A stretch of DNA of 29,620 nt, taken from an uncultured Blautia sp. (GTDB taxonomy: Bacteria; Bacillota; Clostridia; Lachnospirales; Lachnospiraceae). Below, piece by piece: positions 1,164 to 27,408 of this stretch (positions are counted from its first letter, which is position 1; each line of letters opens with the position of its first letter). A program made the translations under genes and the position numbers. A model generated the notes under the pieces. That model ran no database searches, was not told where the DNA came from, and saw only the letters and a program-made list of their open reading frames with translations. Location of the stretch: positions 1-29,620 of the forward strand of contig UQSX01000027.1 in NCBI GenBank assembly GCA_900543715.1. Direction: 5' to 3'.

Positions 1164-2645
1164 ATGAAAGATAGTAAAAAGGAAAAGTTAAAGGAATTAA
1201 AGAAAGAAGACAGAAAGATAAAAAAAGGAAGCGGCGGCAGGAAGAAAAGCCGAAAAAAATCTAAAAAGGCTCTGTGGGCTGCCCTGGGCGGCTGTGCTGT
1301 CCTGGCTGTGGCAGGCTATGCCGGAGTTGGATTTTATTATCAGGATAAATTTTATCCGGGAACCATGATCAACGGTGTGGACTGCTCAGGAAAGGATACG
1401 GCTTATGTACGCGAGCTTCTCAGAGACAGCGCAGAGAATTACTCTTTGAATATCAAAGTGCGGGGCGATAAGACGGAGAAGATAGACGGCAGCACTATCC
1501 AGCTGACTTATCAGGATGATAATGGAGCTGATAAGGTAATGGAAGAACAGAATTCCTGGCTGTGGCCGGTACAGCTCTTTGGAGATAAAACTTATACAGT
1601 GAATGCAGACAGTTCCTACAATGAAGAAAGCCTGAATCAGGCAGTGTCGGCACTGGCCTGCATGCAGGATGCGAACATGACGCCTGCACAAGATGCCAGA
1701 GTGGAGGATAACGGAACTTCCTATGAGATCGTCCCTGAGGTAGAAGGAACAACTTTGGATAAAGAAAAGACGCTGGCAGCTATAAAAGGAGCTGTGGACC
1801 AGCGGCAGACAGAAATCTCACTGGAGGAAGCGGGCTGCTATGTGAAGCCGGCAGTGTATCAGGATAACGAAATCCTGAAAAAAGACGCTGAGCAGCTCAA
1901 TAAATTTACCAGTCTTCAGGCCAGTCTGAATTTCGGAACAGGAACCGAGACTGTAACCAGAGATCAGTTAAAATCATGGCTGAGAAAAGGAGAAGACGGA
2001 AACTATTATTTTGATACAGAGACAGTAAAACAGACGGTGATCGCCTGGTCTGAAAAATACAATACCATCGGTCAGCCCAGAGACTTCGTGACATCAAACG
2101 GCGCTACTGTGCATCTTACCCAGGGGGATTACGGCTGGAGACTGTGGCAGGACAAGACTACGGAATCCCTTGTGAATATGCTGAATGCCGGACAGAGCGG
2201 AGCTGTGGAACCTACCTGGCTTTACTCAGGACAGAAACATGGAGGCAACGATATAGAGGGGACTTACGTGGAGATATCTATCAGCGAACAGAGAATGTGG
2301 TTTTATAAAAACGGTACTCTTCTGGTAGATACTCCTGTGGTAACGGGGAATCCCAACAAAGGGAATGGTACTCCAGCCGGAGGAGTATGGCGGCTGAAGG
2401 ATAAGGCAAGTCCTTCTACTTTAGTGGGAAGATATCCCGACGGCACCATTGAGTATGAGACCCCTGTAAACTATTGGATGCCCTTTAACGGAGGCATAGG
2501 TATCCACGACCTGACCAGCAGAAGAAGTTTTGGAGGAGATATTTATCTGTATAACGGCTCTCACGGCTGCATTAACACACCGCTGGAGAATGCCAGGACA
2601 ATCTATGAGAATATCGAGGTCAATACTCCTGTAGTCGTATATTGA
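1164..2645 (+). CDS. Membrane-anchored L,D-transpeptidase (YkuD) with peptidoglycan-binding region
   Basis: 493 residues. The first 35 are extremely rich in Lys and Arg and should be cytoplasmic. One membrane segment follows (about 36-60, ALWAALGGCAVLAVAGYAG), so this is a type II membrane protein with the rest outside. Residues about 60-350 resemble the PG_binding_4 region found ahead of many Firmicutes YkuD domains. The YkuD domain fills about 365-493. It has the catalytic signature SHGC with Cys469, and an upstream His in IGIHDL near 449. The enzyme would make 3-3 crosslinks in peptidoglycan or attach proteins to it. AAGGAAG lies about 12 bases before the ATG. The gene appears to stand alone: the stop codon overlaps the -35 box of the next transport operon, and no terminator separates them. 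Confidence 0.92.
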   Translation: MKDSKKEKLKELKKEDRKIKKGSGGRKKSRKKSKKALWAALGGCAVLAVAGYAGVGFYYQDKFYPGTMINGVDCSGKDTAYVRELLRDSAENYSLNIKVRGDKTEKIDGSTIQLTYQDDNGADKVMEEQNSWLWPVQLFGDKTYTVNADSSYNEESLNQAVSALACMQDANMTPAQDARVEDNGTSYEIVPEVEGTTLDKEKTLAAIKGAVDQRQTEISLEEAGCYVKPAVYQDNEILKKDAEQLNKFTSLQASLNFGTGTETVTRDQLKSWLRKGEDGNYYFDTETVKQTVIAWSEKYNTIGQPRDFVTSNGATVHLTQGDYGWRLWQDKTTESLVNMLNAGQSGAVEPTWLYSGQKHGGNDIEGTYVEISISEQRMWFYKNGTLLVDTPVVTGNPNKGNGTPAGGVWRLKDKASPSTLVGRYPDGTIEYETPVNYWMPFNGGIGIHDLTSRRSFGGDIYLYNGSHGCINTPLENARTIYENIEVNTPVVVY

Positions 2646-2670
2646 TATTTTTTAGAAAAACTGCTATAAT
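2642..2670 (+). promoter_or_regulatory. Strong extended -10 promoter for the amino acid ABC importer
   Basis: TTGATA (2642-2647), a 17-base spacer, then TGC-TATAAT (-10 at 2665-2670). The -35 box overlaps the TGA stop of the upstream gene (2643-2645). The predicted start near 2677 gives a leader of about 105 bases. That leader contains a weak long-loop hairpin (GGAAC at 2702-2706 with GTTCC at 2727-2731) that I do not recognise as a riboswitch. Confidence 0.7.
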
Positions 2671-2781
2671 CCATGACAACTGAATAAATATACATCAGTG
2701 AGGAACAATTTATTGAAATCATATAAGTTCCTGCAATTTTAAAAAGAATGTTGAATAATTATTAAAAGGAGAGGAAAAAAG

Positions 2782-3582
2782 ATGAAGAAAAAAGTATTAG
2801 CGGTATTTTTTGCGTCAGTTATGGTTCTCACAGCAGCAGGCTGTTCCGGAGGAAACCAGGCATCTTCAGAACCTGTAGAGGTAGCTTCTGTGGAAGATCT
2901 GGCAGAGCTTAATATTGGTGTGCAGATCGGAACTACAGGAGACTCAGCAGCTACGGAAGCTGTAAATGAGGATTCTCAGGTGAACCGTTTTAACAAAGGA
3001 GCAGATGCCATTCAGGCCCTGAAAAACGGAAAGGTAGACTGTGTGGTTATCGACTCTCTTCCTGCTCAGAAGTTTGTAGAGGCAAATGATGATCTGAAGA
3101 TCGTAGACGGGATTTTTGAAACAGAAGAATATGCTATCTGTATGAAAAAAGGCAACACAGAACTGAGAGATTCCTTTAATGAGGCTCTGGCAGAGTTAAA
3201 AGAAGAGGGAACACTGGACGAGATCCAGAGCAATTATATCGGTGATGAAATTGGAGAGCATCCATATGAGTCTCCGGCAGATGTGGACCGTTCCAATGGA
3301 ACCCTGACCATGGCTACCAATGCGGAATTCGAGCCCTGGGAGTATAAAGAGGGAGATGAAATTGTAGGAATCGACGCGGATATTGCTCAGGCCATCTGTG
3401 ATAAACTGGGATATGAGCTGAAAATCGAAGATATGGCCTTTGAAGCTATCCTTACTTCTGTAGATACAGGAAAAGCTGATTTTGGCGCTGCAGGCATGAC
3501 AGTTACCCCTGAGAGAGAAGAGAGCGTAGAATTTACGGATACTTATGCAGAAGCTACCCAGGTTGTCATTGTAAGAAAATAA
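2782..3582 (+). CDS. Amino acid ABC importer substrate-binding lipoprotein, apparently circularly permuted
   Basis: 266 residues with a lipoprotein signal (lipobox TAAGC, Cys21). It clearly belongs to the polar amino acid binding family (SBP type 3), but the halves are in reversed order. The part usually found second comes first: IGVQIGTTGD (45-54), FNKGADAIQALKNGKVD (70-86), VVIDSLPA (88-95), then EEYAICMKKGN and the C-terminal helix to about 155. A linker of about 17 residues follows. Then comes the part that normally starts the mature protein: TLTMATNAEFEPWEY (174-188), GIDADIAQAI and GMTVTPERE (238-246), ending at VVIVRK, which is normally the hinge crossing into lobe 2. Typical ligand contacts (R245, D91, the GTTG loop, aromatic F183 and W186) are all present once, so it should fold and bind. 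It is followed 30 bases later by its permease. The ligand is unknown. Confidence 0.9.
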   Translation: MKKKVLAVFFASVMVLTAAGCSGGNQASSEPVEVASVEDLAELNIGVQIGTTGDSAATEAVNEDSQVNRFNKGADAIQALKNGKVDCVVIDSLPAQKFVEANDDLKIVDGIFETEEYAICMKKGNTELRDSFNEALAELKEEGTLDEIQSNYIGDEIGEHPYESPADVDRSNGTLTMATNAEFEPWEYKEGDEIVGIDADIAQAICDKLGYELKIEDMAFEAILTSVDTGKADFGAAGMTVTPEREESVEFTDTYAEATQVVIVRK

Positions 3583-3612: not shown

Positions 3613-4305
3613 ATGTGGGAAAATCTCCAGCATGGGTTTCAGCGGTATTTTGTAGACAACGGTGCTTCTGAATGGTGGCTTAACGGATTAAAAACCACGA
3701 TCTTAGTGACCCTTCTGGCTCTGTGCATTGGCATAGTGCTGGGATTTTTGGTGGCCCTTATCCGTTCCACTCATGAGCAGACAGGAAAGCTGAAACTGCC
3801 AAACGCTATATGCGTAGTTTATCTGACGGTTATCAGAGGAACTCCTTCGATGATCCAGATACTGATTTTTTATTCTGTTGTTTTTGCCAGTGTTCCTCTG
3901 AATAATATCATTATCGGGGGTATTGCCTTTGGAATCAATTCAGGAGCTTATGTGGCAGAGATCGTCCGCTCCGGCATTATGTCTATCGATAAAGGACAGA
4001 TGGAAGCAGGCAGAAGTCTTGGTCTTAGCTCCGGCCAGACCATGAAACTGATCATTATGCCCCAGGCTTTTAAAAATGTCCTGCCGGCACTGATCAATGA
4101 AATGATTGTACTTTTAAAAGAAACGGCAATTATCGGCTATATTGGTACAATAGATATTACAAAAGCGGCTACCTTAGTGCAGAGCCGTACTTACAGCGCC
4201 TTTGTACCGTTGATTTCAGCAGCCATTTTCTATCTGGTGCTGGTAATGCTGCTGACTTATTTCATGGGCAAGGTGGAAAGGAGGCTGCGCAGAAGTGATC
4301 ACTAA
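3613..4305 (+). CDS. Amino acid ABC transporter permease (HisM/GlnP family)
   Basis: 230 residues, usual for this family. It has hydrophobic spans near 20-45, 65-105 and 190-220. The cytoplasmic EAA loop that docks on the ATPase is clear ([23 protein letters not shown], about 123-145). AAGGAGGAT precedes the ATG. Only one permease gene is present, so it would act as a homodimer. It sits between the binding lipoprotein and the ATPase and overlaps the ATPase gene by 11 bases, which points to translational coupling. Family certain; substrate not deducible. Confidence 0.94.
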
Positions 4306-5038
4306 AGGTGAAGTGTTGATAAAGGTAGAAAATCTTCAGAAGCATTTTGGAGAAAATAAGGTTCTGGATGGTATTAGTACAGAGATCCATAAAGGAGAGG
4401 TAGTTGCCATTATCGGCCCCTCCGGCTCAGGAAAATCTACTTTTCTGCGTTCTCTGAATCTTCTGGAGGTGCCTACCGGGGGGAAAATACTGTTTGAGAA
4501 TGTGGATATTACAGATCCCAAGGTGGATATTGACCGCCACCGCCAGAAAATCGGAATGGTATTTCAGCAGTTTAATCTGTTTCCTCATAAAACAGTAAAG
4601 GAAAATATCATGCTGGCCCCTGTGACTTTGAAGCTTATGACTCCTGAAGAGGCTTCTCAGAGAGCGGAAGAGCTGTTAAATAGAGTGGGGCTTCCGGATA
4701 AAGCAGAAGCTTATCCCGGCAGCCTTTCAGGAGGACAGAAACAGAGGATAGCTATTGCAAGGGCTCTGGCTATGAATCCGGATGTAATGCTTTTTGACGA
4801 GCCAACCTCGGCTCTTGACCCGGAGATGGTAGGAGAGGTTCTGGAAATTATGAGAGAACTGGCTCAGACAGGGATGACCATGGTAGTGGTGACTCATGAA
4901 ATGGGATTTGCAAGAGAAGTGGCCAGCCGGGTACTTTTTATCAATGAAGGAAATATTCAGGAGGATGCTCCGCCTCAGGAATTTTTTGCAAGCCCGAAAA
5001 ATCCAAGACTGCGGGAATTTCTCTCTAAGGTCTTATAA
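4295..5038 (+). CDS. Amino acid ABC transporter ATP-binding protein (GlnQ family)
   Basis: 247 residues starting at a GTG inside the end of the permease gene, with AAAGGAGG about 10 bases upstream. It has Walker A (GPSGSGKST), the Q-loop region ([10 protein letters not shown]), signature LSGGQKQR, Walker B with DEPTSALD, and the H-loop (VVTHEMGF). This is the pattern of ATPases that drive polar amino acid import. It is the last gene of the three-gene importer. No strong terminator follows, but a separate promoter for gpmI lies directly behind. Confidence 0.95.
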
Positions 5039-6757: not shown

Positions 6758-6815
6758 GTAATCACATTTCAAACAATTTCTAAATCCGGCCATTCGGCCA
6801 AAATTCCAAATCAAT

Positions 6816-6905
6816 GTACACAGAGGAACTGAATATGGACAGGCAGGAAAGGGAGCAGTCTGTTTCCTGGTTTTGTGTACGATTTTGTTCCTCTGGGAAA
6901 GGGGA
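6816..6905 (+). promoter_or_regulatory. Leader with competing stems next to the ribosome binding site
   Basis: CAGAGGAAC (6821-6829) is exactly complementary to GTTCCTCTG (6887-6895), directly before the AAAGGGGA ribosome binding site. The overlapping GTACACA (6816-6822) is complementary to TGTGTAC (6874-6880). Both stems cannot form fully at once because they share bases and are not nested. A third stem, CAGGAAA with TTTCCTG (6844-6850 with 6863-6869), lies inside. A switch-like control of translation is an inference; it matches no riboswitch I know. Confidence 0.3.
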
Positions 6906-6909
6906 CACT

Positions 6910-8490
6910 ATGAAAAACACAAAGAAATGGAAGAGCCGGCTGTGGAAAGCTGTTCTTCCGCTGCTTCTCTCTGGCTGCTGTCTGGCATCGGCAGCGGCGG
7001 CCCCAGGGGGAAACGTCACCATCACCAATGAAAAAGGTATGAAGTACCCGGCAGCCTGGGGAAACCACGCTACCCATTATTATACGGCGACTACGCAGAA
7101 AGGGACTTCTGTGGCTTACTGTCTGGAACCAGTTGAGCGGCAGATCCCTACAGGTCAATACACAGAAGAGATACTGGAGGGAAACCAGGGCCTGGAAGCT
7201 GCTCTTTACTATTCCTATGGAGGTCCGGGACAAAGTGAATATATCGATCAGGCGGATTACAGCAATATCGGAAACACATCTCTGGAGGACGCCAAGTATA
7301 TCCGCAGTCATCTGGCAGTGTCATATTTTTACGATCCGGAAAAGGCCTTCTATGGAATGACAGAAGAAAATATCCAAAATTCCGGGGTCATGGATTTTAT
7401 TCACTGGCTGGAAGGAAAAACAGCGCCATCTGTTACCTCCTCTTTCTCCGAGACAGAACTGACAGCCTATTATGAAGAGGGAACAGACAGGCAGCGGACC
7501 CCTTCTATGCAGTATCTGTCCGAAGAACCGGAGAATCAGATCACCATTGCCTGCCCTGAAGGAGTAGTACTTCATAATGAGACTACTGGACGGGAGGAAA
7601 CGGGAAATGTGATTTTGAAAGCAGATGACAGCTTCTACTTTACAGCACCGCTGAATATAGCAGCTTTGCAGGGAGAGACCTGGAAGGTCCAGGGGCTTAC
7701 CGGCACCCGGGATGGACGCTGGCAGGTTATGAAGATCACAGCCACAGGAGACTACCAGGATTCCGGATATGGCTGCTATTCCAGAGACCAGATATCCGGT
7801 ACTGGATTTTTGGTGAACTGGACCTCCTTTGGAAGCCTGGAAGTACGAAAAGTAGATAAAGAAACCGGACAGAAAGAACCTCAGGGAAAAGGAAGCTTTC
7901 AGGGGGCAGAGTACACAGTCTATAAAGATGGCAAAGAAGTAGGAAAAATCCTTACAGATGAAAATGGTCAGGGAAGACTGGACCGTCTTTTGGCAGGGAC
8001 TTATACGGTAAAAGAGACAAAGGCTCCTCCCGGTTATGAACTGGATCCGGAAACTTATACGGTTCAAATCCCCCAGGGGCAGCCGGATTTTACAGCAGTG
8101 ACAGAGTCCAGAGAACAGGCGGTAAAGGTTAAGATCCATGTTCAGAAAAAGGATGGGGAAACAGGAGAAAGCACCGGACAGGGAAAAGGAACGTTGGAAG
8201 GAGCGGAATACACAGTTTATGCAGGAGAGGATATTGGCACTATAAAGAAAGACGATGCTGTGGGGAAGATCATTACCGATGGGAATGGCCGGGGAACTCT
8301 GGAAAACCTTTTGCCGGGAAAATATTATGTAAAAGAAACCAAAGCGTCTCCTGGCTATTTTCTGGATCCTCTTTTCCCCTGGATCAAAGCCAGACCGAAG
8401 GAACGGTCACCAGCCAGGAAAAGCCGGTTCGGGGAAACATTGAACTCTACAAAACTGACAGTGAGACAAAGGGAAATACTCCCCAGGTAA
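6910..8490 (+). CDS. Cna-B (SpaA) surface adhesin, N-terminal part, frame broken near 8379
   Basis: About 526 residues as read. I chose the ATG at 6910 because AAAGGGGA precedes it and it begins a normal signal peptide (about 1-31, ending in ASAAAA). Residues about 34-310 look like a thioester-type adhesin head, with the candidate reactive cysteine C71 in SVAYCLEP. The usual downstream TQ motif is not clear (RSHLAVSYFYD at the expected place), so bond formation is uncertain. Two Cna-B/SpaA domains follow, each with a strand-A lysine (EVRKVD, HVQKKD) and an E-box (VKETKAPPGY, VKETKASPGY). After GYFLDP, near residue 490, the frame changes to unrelated sequence and stops at 8490. The homologous sequence continues at once in the -1 frame (next entry). 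Together the two parts would be 1328 residues. Confidence 0.85.
   Translation: MKNTKKWKSRLWKAVLPLLLSGCCLASAAAAPGGNVTITNEKGMKYPAAWGNHATHYYTATTQKGTSVAYCLEPVERQIPTGQYTEEILEGNQGLEAALYYSYGGPGQSEYIDQADYSNIGNTSLEDAKYIRSHLAVSYFYDPEKAFYGMTEENIQNSGVMDFIHWLEGKTAPSVTSSFSETELTAYYEEGTDRQRTPSMQYLSEEPENQITIACPEGVVLHNETTGREETGNVILKADDSFYFTAPLNIAALQGETWKVQGLTGTRDGRWQVMKITATGDYQDSGYGCYSRDQISGTGFLVNWTSFGSLEVRKVDKETGQKEPQGKGSFQGAEYTVYKDGKEVGKILTDENGQGRLDRLLAGTYTVKETKAPPGYELDPETYTVQIPQGQPDFTAVTESREQAVKVKIHVQKKDGETGESTGQGKGTLEGAEYTVYAGEDIGTIKKDDAVGKIITDGNGRGTLENLLPGKYYVKETKASPGYFLDPLFPWIKARPKERSPARKSRFGETLNSTKLTVRQREILPR
8373..8379 (+). other. Frame break, or possible -1 slippery heptamer T TTC CCC
   Basis: In the upstream frame the codons are CTT TTC CCC TGG. 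The heptamer T TTC CCC fits the X XXY YYZ rule for simultaneous -1 slippage. A slip yields L-F-P-L-D-Q-S-Q, which joins the two open frames without a gap. The same result would come from loss of one C from a run of five, so an indel mutation or sequencing error explains it equally well. I did not identify a clear stimulatory structure downstream. Confidence 0.4.
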
Positions 8491-10895
8491 CAGGGAGCAG
8501 CTTCAAAGGGGCCGTATATCAGGTATGTGCGCTGGAAGATATCGGAGAACTGAAAAAAGGAGAGAAGGCCGGAGAGATCATTACCGATGAAAAGGGCTAT
8601 GGAAAACTCCAAAATCTCCTCATGGGCACTTACGGAATAAAGGAAATAAAGGCTCCATTGGGATATCTTCTTGATGAGACAGAATATAAGGCTGTGATCT
8701 CTCAGGCAAAGGAGGGAGCGGCCAGCCTGACTGTTCAGGTAAAGAGCCAGGAAAAGCCTGTCAGGGGTGACGTAGCTCTTACAAAGCTTTTAAAGGACAA
8801 AGAGGAGAATGGATTTAAGAATCCTGGAGAAGGCATTCGGTTTACATTTACAGAGGTAGGAAATGAGAAAAATACCCTTACGATCACCACAGATGAAAAC
8901 GGGTATGCCACTACTGCAGATAAGAGATATCCGGATGGAAGGCTTTTATACGGAACCTATAAGGTGACAGAATCGAATGTCCCAAAAGGTTACGCAGCCA
9001 TAGAGCCTTTCCAGGTCACCATCCGGGAGAACCAGCAGAAGCTTTATTACATCATTGAAAATCAGCAGATCCTCTGTCCGCTGAAAGTGACGAAGACTGC
9101 GGCGGATACAGGAAAGGTTATTGCAAAATCCGGAACCCGGTTTAAGATACAGAAAAAAGAAGGAGGACAGTGGAAAGATCAGGAATATCTGGTGACCTAT
9201 TATCCCCATGAGATACGACAGACGGTTTTTGAGACAGATGAAAGCGGAAGCTTTTATCTTCCGGAAAAATTAAAGACAGGAGATTACCGGGTAGTGGAAG
9301 TAGCGCCTCCTCCAGGATATGCTCTAAACATGGAGCCTGTGGAATTTTCTGTTACAGATGAGATGAAAGACAGCCAGGGACTGGAAGTGACCGTTCAGGA
9401 TCAGCCTCAGAAGGGAAGGCTTCAGATCTTAAAACTGGATGAAGAGTCCGGGGAAAGCGCCGGAGAAGGATTTACTTTTTCCATTACTGCGGCAGAAGAG
9501 ATCAGGACAGGAGATGGAAGTTTAAGGCTGGAAAAAGGAGAGAAAGCAGGGGAAGTAACGACAGATAAAGAGGGAAAAGCCGTCAGCGGAGAGCTTTTCC
9601 CTGGAAAATATATCGTAAAAGAGGAACAGCCGGGAGAATATTACGCACTGGGGGAGGAAAGCTATGAGATAGACATTGCCCCGGAAAGTACGGAAGAAGT
9701 CTTTCGAATTACCATAAAGCCGGAAAATAAAAAGACAAAGATAATCCTCCATAAGACAGACAAAACAGATCCGGACAAAGAGCTGGAAGGCGCCAGGTTC
9801 CGCCTTTACAGAGAAGAGGAGCTGACAGAGGAAGAACTGGAGGATCTGGGAGAGAGGATTCCTGAAAAAGGACGGCTGGCCGTCACCGATAAAGAAGGGA
9901 AACTCCTTTTTACAGACTTATGTCATGATACCACATACTATCTGGCAGAGGTTCAGGCAGCGCCGGGATATATCCGCAGTCAGGAAGTTTACCAGCTCTA
10001 TGTAGATGAAAAAGGACTGATCAGCAGAAAACAGGAAAAAACCATAGAGATTTCCAATACGCCTCTGCCAAAGGGATCCCTTCTGATCACAAAAACAGAT
10101 CAGGATACAGGAGAAAATCTGGGAAAGGGATTTGTCTTTGAAGTCCATGCCGCTGAAGATATTATGTCCTATGAGGGCCAGATTTTATACAAAAAAGATG
10201 ATCTGGTAGATACCATAGAGACAGATGAAAAAGGTCTTGCGGAAAGTAAAGAGCTGTTTCCAGGAAAATACCTGGTTTGGGAAACAAAAACCGGGGAATA
10301 TTATGCATTGGACCAGAAAAAATATGAGACAGAAATACAGCTAAATGAAGAAAACCAGATAACAAAGGGTGAGCTCCGGATAGAAAACAAGAAAACCTGT
10401 TTTAATCTTGAAAAGACGGACAAGGAAACCGGGGAGCCCCTGCAGGATGTGGTCTTTTCTCTGGGAACCTGGGAAGAGGAGCCAGACCGGGAGTTTCTTC
10501 TGAAAGAAGGAAAACGTCTGGTCACAGACAAAGAGGGAAGGATCACTTTTGATAATCTGAAACACGGATGCACCTATTACCTGACAGAAGCAGAACCGCT
10601 GGAAGGATATCAGGAAGATACACAGATTTACAGCTTCCAGGTAGATGAAGATGGGCTGATCCAGAAAGAGAAAGAGTACACGTTAAAACTGACCAATACT
10701 GTGAAAACGGAAGAAGTTCCAAAACAGGAGGATAAACCGGAAAATAAAAACGATAGAAAAGAGGATACCCCAAAGAAGGTACAGACTGTGGAGACGGAAG
10801 ACAGGATACCGCTGGCTGAGATGGGGCTTTTATGGACCATCAGCGGAACCTGCCTGCTGGCTCTGGCATGGAGACAAAAAAGACGCCAAAAATAA
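8379..10895 (+). pseudogene. Cna-B surface adhesin, C-terminal part in the -1 frame
   Basis: Open from the frame break to 10895, about 838 residues; the first ATG in frame is at 8622. Seven further Cna-B/SpaA repeats can be counted. They start at GNIELYKTD, GDVALTKLL, CPLKVTKTA, GRLQILKLD, TKIILHKTD, GSLLITKTD and CFNLEKTD, and most have an E-box such as YKVTESNVPKGY or YRVVEVAPPPGY. These domains usually carry internal Lys-Asn isopeptide bonds and form stiff stalks. The C-terminus has a charged linker, one membrane span (LLWTISGTCLLALAW) and a KRRQK tail, like a sortase signal. There is no LPXTG, only IPLAEMG before the span. Without a frameshift it has no signal peptide and cannot be exported, so it is a pseudogene half or the second part of a recoded or phase-variable protein. 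Uninterrupted coding argues that decay, if any, is recent. Confidence 0.75.
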
Positions 10896-27054: not shown

Positions 27055-27404
27055 GGGCTTGTACTGGTTTCGACGGGGGTTTTGAAGTTGAGGAAGCCAT
27101 CCGCAGACTCCGGGACTGCGTACCAACCTGGAACTTAAATATAAACGCAAACAATAATAGAGTAGCGTTAGCTGCCTAATTGCAGCTTGTCAGCCTTAGA
27201 CCACCCGCTGTTTAAGTGTCTGGCATCGAACTTGCGGGGAACTTCACTTTCAAAGCTTTGAGATTGGGGAAGATTTTATGAAGCTACCAAACCCAAAAGC
27301 CTGTTATTCGGCGCTTGGGTAAGGGAATGCCAAAAGAATAACTGTGATGGGAGATGCTTCAAGGGATAGACTTTCGGACAGGGGTTCGATTCCCCTCAGG
27401 TCCA
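27055..27404 (+). ncRNA. ssrA: tmRNA
   Basis: 350 bases. The 5' end GGGCTTG pairs with CAGGTCC at 27397-27403 (two G-U pairs) as the acceptor stem. ACTGGTTTCGAC is the invariant tmRNA 5' segment. The T arm GGGG-TTCGATT-CCCC is at 27381-27395. CCA is not encoded (A at 27404, then TAG), so it must be added. The tag frame starts at GCA 27147 and reads ANNNRVALAA, with TAA at 27177-27179; the ALAA end is the usual protease signal. With SmpB it frees stalled ribosomes and marks their products. It has its own promoter and terminator and is not adjacent to smpB. Confidence 0.97.
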
Positions 27405-27408
27405 TAGA

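Follow-up and report, generated by a model that had tools for sequence, protein, structure and literature searches.

Solute-binding proteins (SBPs) of the SBP_bac_3 family (PF00497), such as GlnH/GlnBP, the arginine-binding protein ArgBP of Thermotoga maritima and the ancestral arginine/glutamine binder AncQR (PDB 4zv1), have a canonical chain order of lobe 1, lobe 2 and C-terminal helix. Here we describe a gene for a member of this family in a 29,620-nucleotide stretch of DNA from an uncultured Blautia sp. (contig UQSX01000027.1 of assembly GCA_900543715.1; the whole stretch is called the window). Its product shares the core ligand residues of the canonical proteins, and its operon has the same kind of permease and ATPase. 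Unlike theirs, its two halves are swapped and joined by a 17-residue linker, the chain ends at the hinge, and the predicted lipid anchor lies beside lobe 2.

Natural circular permutation is already known in other binding proteins. The relevant passages of PMC4990184 describe TpMglB-2 (Tp0684), a glucose-binding lipoprotein of Treponema, as a natural permutation for which a 'Type Ic/Cluster Bc' was proposed; they place relatives of it in Gram-positive gut bacteria and raise the permuted topology as a possible adaptation to membrane tethering. Like the Blautia protein, TpMglB-2 is a naturally permuted, tethered binding protein of the ATP-binding cassette (ABC) type, and it is described there as still binding its ligand. 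It differs in belonging to an unrelated family with a type I (cluster B) sugar-binding fold, in which N-lobe strands are reordered and the hinge has a fourth crossing (PMC4990184). The glycine-betaine-binding proteins OpuAC and ProX form another natural case, which the parts of PMC2395249 that treat it report as detected from structure (CPSARST), in pairs with less than 24% identity. They belong to a distant family with other ligands, whereas the canonical form and the two permuted forms described here (classes A and B, below) can be aligned by sequence. The published natural SBP permutations that we found were recognised from structures of distant relatives. No report of natural permutation in PF00497 was found among the literature matches listed.

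The halves of the binding protein are exchanged

In what follows, L2 denotes residues 36-155 of the protein, which comprise lobe 2, the segment returning to lobe 1 and the C-terminal helices. L1 denotes residues 173-266. The protein matched PF00497 at 126.9 bits against a cut-off of 26.4, with the match split over two stretches. The canonical chain order was not found and the protein was filed as a permuted variant. All three PDB alignments shown consisted of two blocks each, in swapped order. With the native sequence, 4zv1 was matched at 147 bits, residues 172-266 aligning with chain positions 9-104 and residues 34-154 with positions 109-232. When residues 173-266 were joined to residues 36-155, the rejoined sequence matched 4zv1 without a break, from 1-213 to 10-232, at 153.2 bits. 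The order is therefore L2-linker-L1. An initial annotation of this DNA had read the motifs of an SBP type 3 protein as second half followed by first half, each present once, with a linker at residues 156-172 and a C-terminal end at VVIVRK. Both the order and the numbering agree with these alignments.

By sequence, the nearest solved relatives are AncQR (4zv1) and T. maritima ArgBP (6svf). A Pfam scan of the protein gave no match at E 0.001 to PF04069, which we take to be the OpuAC family, and the match to PF10613 scored 24.3 bits, under the cut-off of 30. The protein is not of the TpMglB-2-like 'Type Ic' kind (type I/cluster B fold, permuted N lobe), as it belongs to PF00497.

Homologues and purifying selection

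A scan with an alignment of the junction, using one genome per species for 84,980 species, returned 494 confirmed relatives, and the best 80 were kept. An open reading frame (ORF) with the order L2-L1 was present in 80 of the 80 loci (81 such ORFs), and the order L2-L1-L2 was found in none of these best 80. The loci were chosen by their junction and a shared junction is to be expected; what is informative is that the two-part ORFs are intact, that the loci are spread over several genera and that three-part forms are absent. The genera included Blautia, Fusicatenibacter, Eisenbergiella, Roseburia (R. faecis), Oliverpabstia and Parasporobacterium, among others, and two of the loci (L034 and L036) came from complete genomes. 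One locus (L025, 4642-6390) carried two permuted genes in tandem before a single permease and ATPase.

Five DNA blocks of the window aligned with Blautia sp. An81, at identities of 81-92%; the 5,362 bases containing the gene were 88.0% identical. The ratio of nonsynonymous to synonymous substitution rates (dN/dS) between the two genes was 0.03 overall. There were zero replacements in L2, the linker and L1, where dS was 0.33-0.36. Values of 0.04-0.19 were obtained against 10 of the other 11 relatives, mostly with dS near or above 1, and for the remaining one (L007) dS was not computable. These values indicate that the ORF is under purifying selection. An assembly artefact or truncation was ruled out by the 80 two-part loci together with purifying selection. 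The initial annotation had argued for a permutation instead of a truncation or duplication, and had asked whether homologues share the order and whether a misassembly could explain it. The swapped blocks, the rejoined match, the 80 loci, the purifying selection and the confident model described below all bear it out. As judged from sequence, the gene is a real, naturally circularly permuted SBP family 3 gene, and its product is probably functional.

Linker, predicted fold and ligand contacts

We refer to the order L2-linker-L1, as in the window gene, as class A. The class-A junction, measured by profile, was 17-18 residues long in 89 of 97 proteins. Among 86 aligned class-A rows, linker residue Tyr162 was invariant, and Gly158, Pro161 and Pro165 were present at 95-99%. 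Mean entropy was 0.98 bits in the linker and 1.03 in L2, compared to 2.12 in the signal and tether region. An AlphaFold model built from 86 sequences had a mean predicted local distance difference test score (pLDDT) of 90.8 and a predicted template modelling score (pTM) of 0.83. The linker blocks scored pLDDT 95-98 and a strand was modelled at residues 256-265. This prediction is of a monomer and includes the linker in the confident fold. Because its length is nearly constant, its Tyr, Gly and Pro residues are conserved and its pLDDT is high, the linker is predicted to be a structural piece of the protein and not a loose tether.

From the contact roles in GlnBP and a comparison of motifs by eye, we take Phe13, Phe50, Gly68, Thr70, Arg75 and Asp157 of GlnBP to correspond to F183, F220, G238, T240, R245 and D91 of the permuted protein. 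These six residues were present at 98-100% among the 86 class-A rows. They include the Arg, Asp, Thr and Phe contacts of PF00497 to the core of an alpha-amino acid (R245, D91, T240, F183 and F220, at 99-100%). Other counterparts differ: Lys115 is replaced by Q48, His156 by I90 and Asp10 by N180, as is usual at positions that set specificity. The earlier statement that every expected ligand contact is kept thus holds for the six core residues but not for these three positions.

Operon context and other features of the window

The features of the gene and its importer are listed in Table 1.

Table 1. Positions in the window of the permuted gene, its parts and the neighbouring importer features
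Feature	Position	Strand	Basis
Circularly permuted amino-acid-binding lipoprotein, 266 aa	2782..3582	+	ORF and Pfam/PDB matches, homologues, model, selection
Signal peptide and lipobox, residues 1-21	2782..2844	+	LTAAGC motif; predicted
Second half of canonical SBP (lobe 2, hinge return strand, C-terminal helices), residues 36-155	2887..3246	+	
Linker from old C-terminus to old N-terminus, residues 156-172	3247..3297	+	Conservation, pLDDT, dN 0 vs Blautia An81
First half of canonical SBP (main lobe 1 to hinge strand 1), residues 173-266	3298..3579	+	Ends VVIVRK
Amino acid ABC permease, single MetI-type subunit	3613..4305	+	PF00528, TIGR01726
Amino acid ABC ATPase	4295..5038	+	PF00005
Shine-Dalgarno-like AAAGGAGAGG	2765..2774	+	Read in sequence
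Sigma-70-like promoter match TTGATA-17-TATAAT, 5' of importer genes	2642..2670	+	Consensus scan

The permease matched PF00528 at 72.2 bits (cut-off 26.4) and TIGR01726 at 62.9 bits (cut-off 42.2). The ATPase matched PF00005 at 139.9 bits, and its best NCBIfam row was GlnQ at 323.9 bits, under that row's cut-off of 379. The operon thus has the MetI-type permease and the ATPase of a polar amino acid ABC importer, one of each after the SBP gene, and the importer is complete, as had been annotated. A permease and ATPase also lay directly downstream in nearly all of the homologous loci. At one locus with a class-A protein (L098, 2105-2881), neither was found in the 2.1 kb downstream.

The protein has the marks of a bacterial lipoprotein, with the lipobox LTAAGC after a signal peptide. 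By the lipobox rule, Cys21 is presumably the lipidated residue after the predicted processing. A simple lipobox pattern was present in 68 of 97 class-A proteins. The promoter-like match scores 11 of 12 against the consensus. Eight such sites occurred in the region compared to a mean of 4.6 in its shuffles and, thus, the match is not proof of a promoter.

Elsewhere in the window, two adjacent ORFs (6814-8490 and 8622-10895) contain SpaA/prealbumin-like repeats, as judged by eye, and may represent a single surface protein interrupted between them. A tmRNA gene lies at 27055-27407 (Rfam RF00023, 160 bits; ARAGORN tag ANNNRVALAA).

Distribution of class A and fusion to the permease

In the family of Blautia sp. 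An81, 231 of 299 genomes matched the junction profile, many over the lobe-1 side only. Since this short profile also matches canonical N-termini, the count was restricted to matches covering 66 or more of the 68 positions. Such matches, with E no worse than 2e-19, occurred in 59 of the 299 genomes (a hand count that excludes G203). Loci were read for 11 genomes with matches of this extent; 10 were class A and one (G203) was canonical. The G203 locus (L081) has three canonical units in tandem, (L1-L2)x3, fused to a permease, despite a junction match of that extent. The class-A locus of G175 is cut by a contig end. That of G217 (L082) is a permease fusion that is apparently frameshifted, with L2 in one frame and L1 plus the permease in the next.

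In 21 of 295 genomes of the order, a class-A match at E < 1e-70 ran in one piece over nearly the full length. A phylum sample of 398 genomes gave nine matches at E 1e-12. Four were permuted (three class A, one class B), in genomes that are also in the family sample; the remaining five matches span a portion of the profile. Two class-A loci (L069 and L080) come from metagenome-assembled genomes labelled Oscillospiraceae. Because of the counts in the family, order and phylum samples, the permutation looks centred on Lachnospiraceae.

Class-A proteins fused to the permease through their new C-terminus were found at six loci (L069, L077, L083, L084, L085 and L106). Open frames of 501-537 residues were present at the match in 10 of the 21 order genomes; only one of these ten has been read (G555, which is L106). 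More distant L2-L1-permease fusions occur at L108-L111, and arrays of L2-L1 units precede one permease at L107 (two units), L140 (three) and L139 (five). In L001-L080, the distance from an unfused SBP gene to the permease had a median of 74 bases (range -10 to 313) and, therefore, fusion looks simple. By these counts, class-A proteins are common in the Blautia family, and fusion of their hinge-side C-terminus to the permease is frequent.

Fusions of the GlnPQ type (SBD1-SBD2, 6h30) likewise join binding domains to a permease in tandem arrays. Their units are canonical, (L1-L2)n, while the arrays of L107, L139 and L140 are (L2-L1)n, with the hinge end leading into the membrane domain. The ligand-binding domains of ionotropic glutamate receptors (iGluRs) offer another comparison. 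These receptors keep the canonical order and have the pore inserted near the end of PF10613. The class-A cut also falls near that end, with residues 219-265 matching positions 66-112 of the 115-position profile, and residues 102-226 of the GluR0 core align with residues 29-154 of the permuted protein. Unlike in iGluRs, at the class-A cut the chain ends or the permease begins.

A second permuted order

In a second order, class B, the cut lies in the middle of lobe 2. The order is L2c-linker-L1-L2n, with L2 profile positions about 64-119 first and about 6-69 last. Fourteen such loci were read (L086-L094, L099, L100, L103, L112 and L113). The junction was 15 residues long in 13 of them, and a permease and ATPase followed the gene in all 14. 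The AlphaFold model of class B had a pLDDT of 85.8 and a pTM of 0.74. Names obtained via homologues include Mediterraneibacter butyricigenes (100%) and Dorea formicigenerans (80%). No relationship was apparent by eye between the linkers of class A, class B, L103 and L104, a hint that the old ends were joined on separate occasions.

Number of origins and three-part proteins

The careful tree comprised 76 rows and 211 columns; thinning at 72% identity had reduced the class-A rows from 87 to 18. Five loci were dropped beforehand: L114, L117 and L120 because of their long branches, L096 because a contig end cuts it and L136 because its ORF is broken. The tree requires four order changes. At least two of these are forced by starred branches for class B, because L103, which is class-B-ordered, sits within starred clades of canonical proteins. 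The class-A-ordered L104 groups with canonical rows (starred), and a fused class A-prime (L107-L111, L139 and L140) lies apart from class A. Approximately unbiased (AU) tests rejected none of the single-origin groupings: class B (p 0.213), A plus A-prime (p 0.164) and all permuted proteins (p 0.071). A single origin, or a return to canonical order, may therefore have occurred, and our claim concerns two distinct permuted orders, class A and class B, both of which exist among the sequences read, and not a count of events.

Among 121 catalogue proteins, the query included, 70 were L2-L1, 37 were L2-L1-L2, 11 were L1-L2-L1 and three were partial duplications. The three-part L2-L1-L2 proteins (about 390 aa) and the reciprocal L1-L2-L1 forms (48 of the 121, within P0025-P0113) come from metagenome catalogues, and no ORF in loci L001-L140 has the full L2-L1-L2 order. 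In 13 of the 37, an N-terminal part 99-100% identical to a listed permuted protein is joined to a canonical-type C-terminal part, and 11 of these 13 (P0025-P0035) share one and the same match for the N-terminal part. The C-terminal parts of P0050 and P0113 are 97% identical to a canonical gene. We suspect from these identities that some three-part proteins are metagenome chimeras or recombinants. The remaining L2-L1-L2 proteins have N-terminal parts only 58-87% identical to the permuted proteins compared, and the contigs that carry two three-part proteins (P0080 and P0085) are 20 and 32 kb long; there may be real three-part proteins among the rest. Three-part proteins were also considered as duplication intermediates and set aside, since no full L2-L1-L2 ORF occurs in L001-L140, both reciprocal forms exist and the identities resemble those of chimeras.

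Discussion

Taken together, the gene very probably encodes the lipid-anchored binding subunit of an ABC importer for polar amino acids and underwent circular permutation in an ancestor. The model predicts that the protein most likely folds as one bilobed domain. The cleft between the lobes would close on an amino acid, and docking to the permease dimer would most likely follow that of canonical SBPs. With the old ends joined by the conserved 17-residue linker and the new ends placed just past hinge strand 1, one lobe-to-lobe crossing would remain covalent, and the other would be made by a chain end packed as a terminal strand. The point of entry of the lipid tether would be on the side of lobe 2 and the hinge, not at lobe 1, and the free hinge-side C-terminus would offer a ready point for permease fusion, as used by relatives. 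The initial annotation had suggested that new ends at the hinge could change opening, docking or the distance from the lipid anchor; its idea about the hinge gains some indirect weight, since relatives attach the permease at this very C-terminus. The likely origin is the classical one of tandem duplication and fusion, followed by loss of the outer first half and the outer second half. We are evenly divided on a wider proposal: that within one gut-bacterial family the protein was permuted more than once, at no fewer than two cut sites (hinge strand 1 and mid lobe 2), and that the hinge-side C-terminus of class A wires single units, or arrays of up to five, to the permease.

Whether the permutation brought any benefit is a separate matter. 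It could be a neutral accident that conferred no new property, a view compatible with the explanation above and one that we hold to be a serious possibility while leaning slightly away from it. Of the 10 named genomes in which PF00497 was sought, 6 have canonical genes beside the permuted one, and vertical inheritance from a single origin is not rejected by the AU tests. On the other hand, two cuts and many permease fusions in one group suggest that the rearrangement is often tolerated and perhaps favoured.

Another possibility is that the protein is an obligate domain-swapped dimer, in which the halves pair between two molecules. Domain swapping occurs in the near relative T. maritima ArgBP, and the permuted chain is interrupted at one of its hinge crossings. 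The nearly fixed length of the linker and its conserved Gly, Tyr and Pro argue against this, as does the confident placement of the linker within one chain, in a monomer prediction. Also, in the single-unit fusions every permease chain has its own SBP unit. We consider the dimer improbable, and an intramolecular pairing of the halves remains our preferred reading. A role as a secreted receptor or moonlighting protein, instead of a transport subunit, is less probable still: PF00497 and the related PF10613 do occur in receptors, but the lipobox, the permease and ATPase directly downstream in nearly all loci and the permease fusions of relatives point to transport. An assembly error or decaying gene, to which the possibly chimeric three-part catalogue proteins might lend some credit, is refuted for the family by the 80 two-part loci, purifying selection, the Shine-Dalgarno-like site, the promoter-like match and the importer context, and is very improbable for the window gene.

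For annotation, a profile match scores both halves, but the resulting name hides the swap, and catalogues may hold chimeras of both orders. Because canonical and two permuted orders coexist in the genomes at hand and can be aligned by sequence, what hinge continuity, lipid-tether position and permease attachment contribute to closing, affinity and transport can be tested, as can the way in which a permutation arises. The PF00497 permutation is a second, independent case beside TpMglB-2, with many replicates. If the wider proposal above is true, the bilobed SBP would be an evolutionarily circular module whose movable ends change its tethering and coupling. Related bacteria with both rearrangements provide natural tests of how far SBPs tolerate being re-cut.
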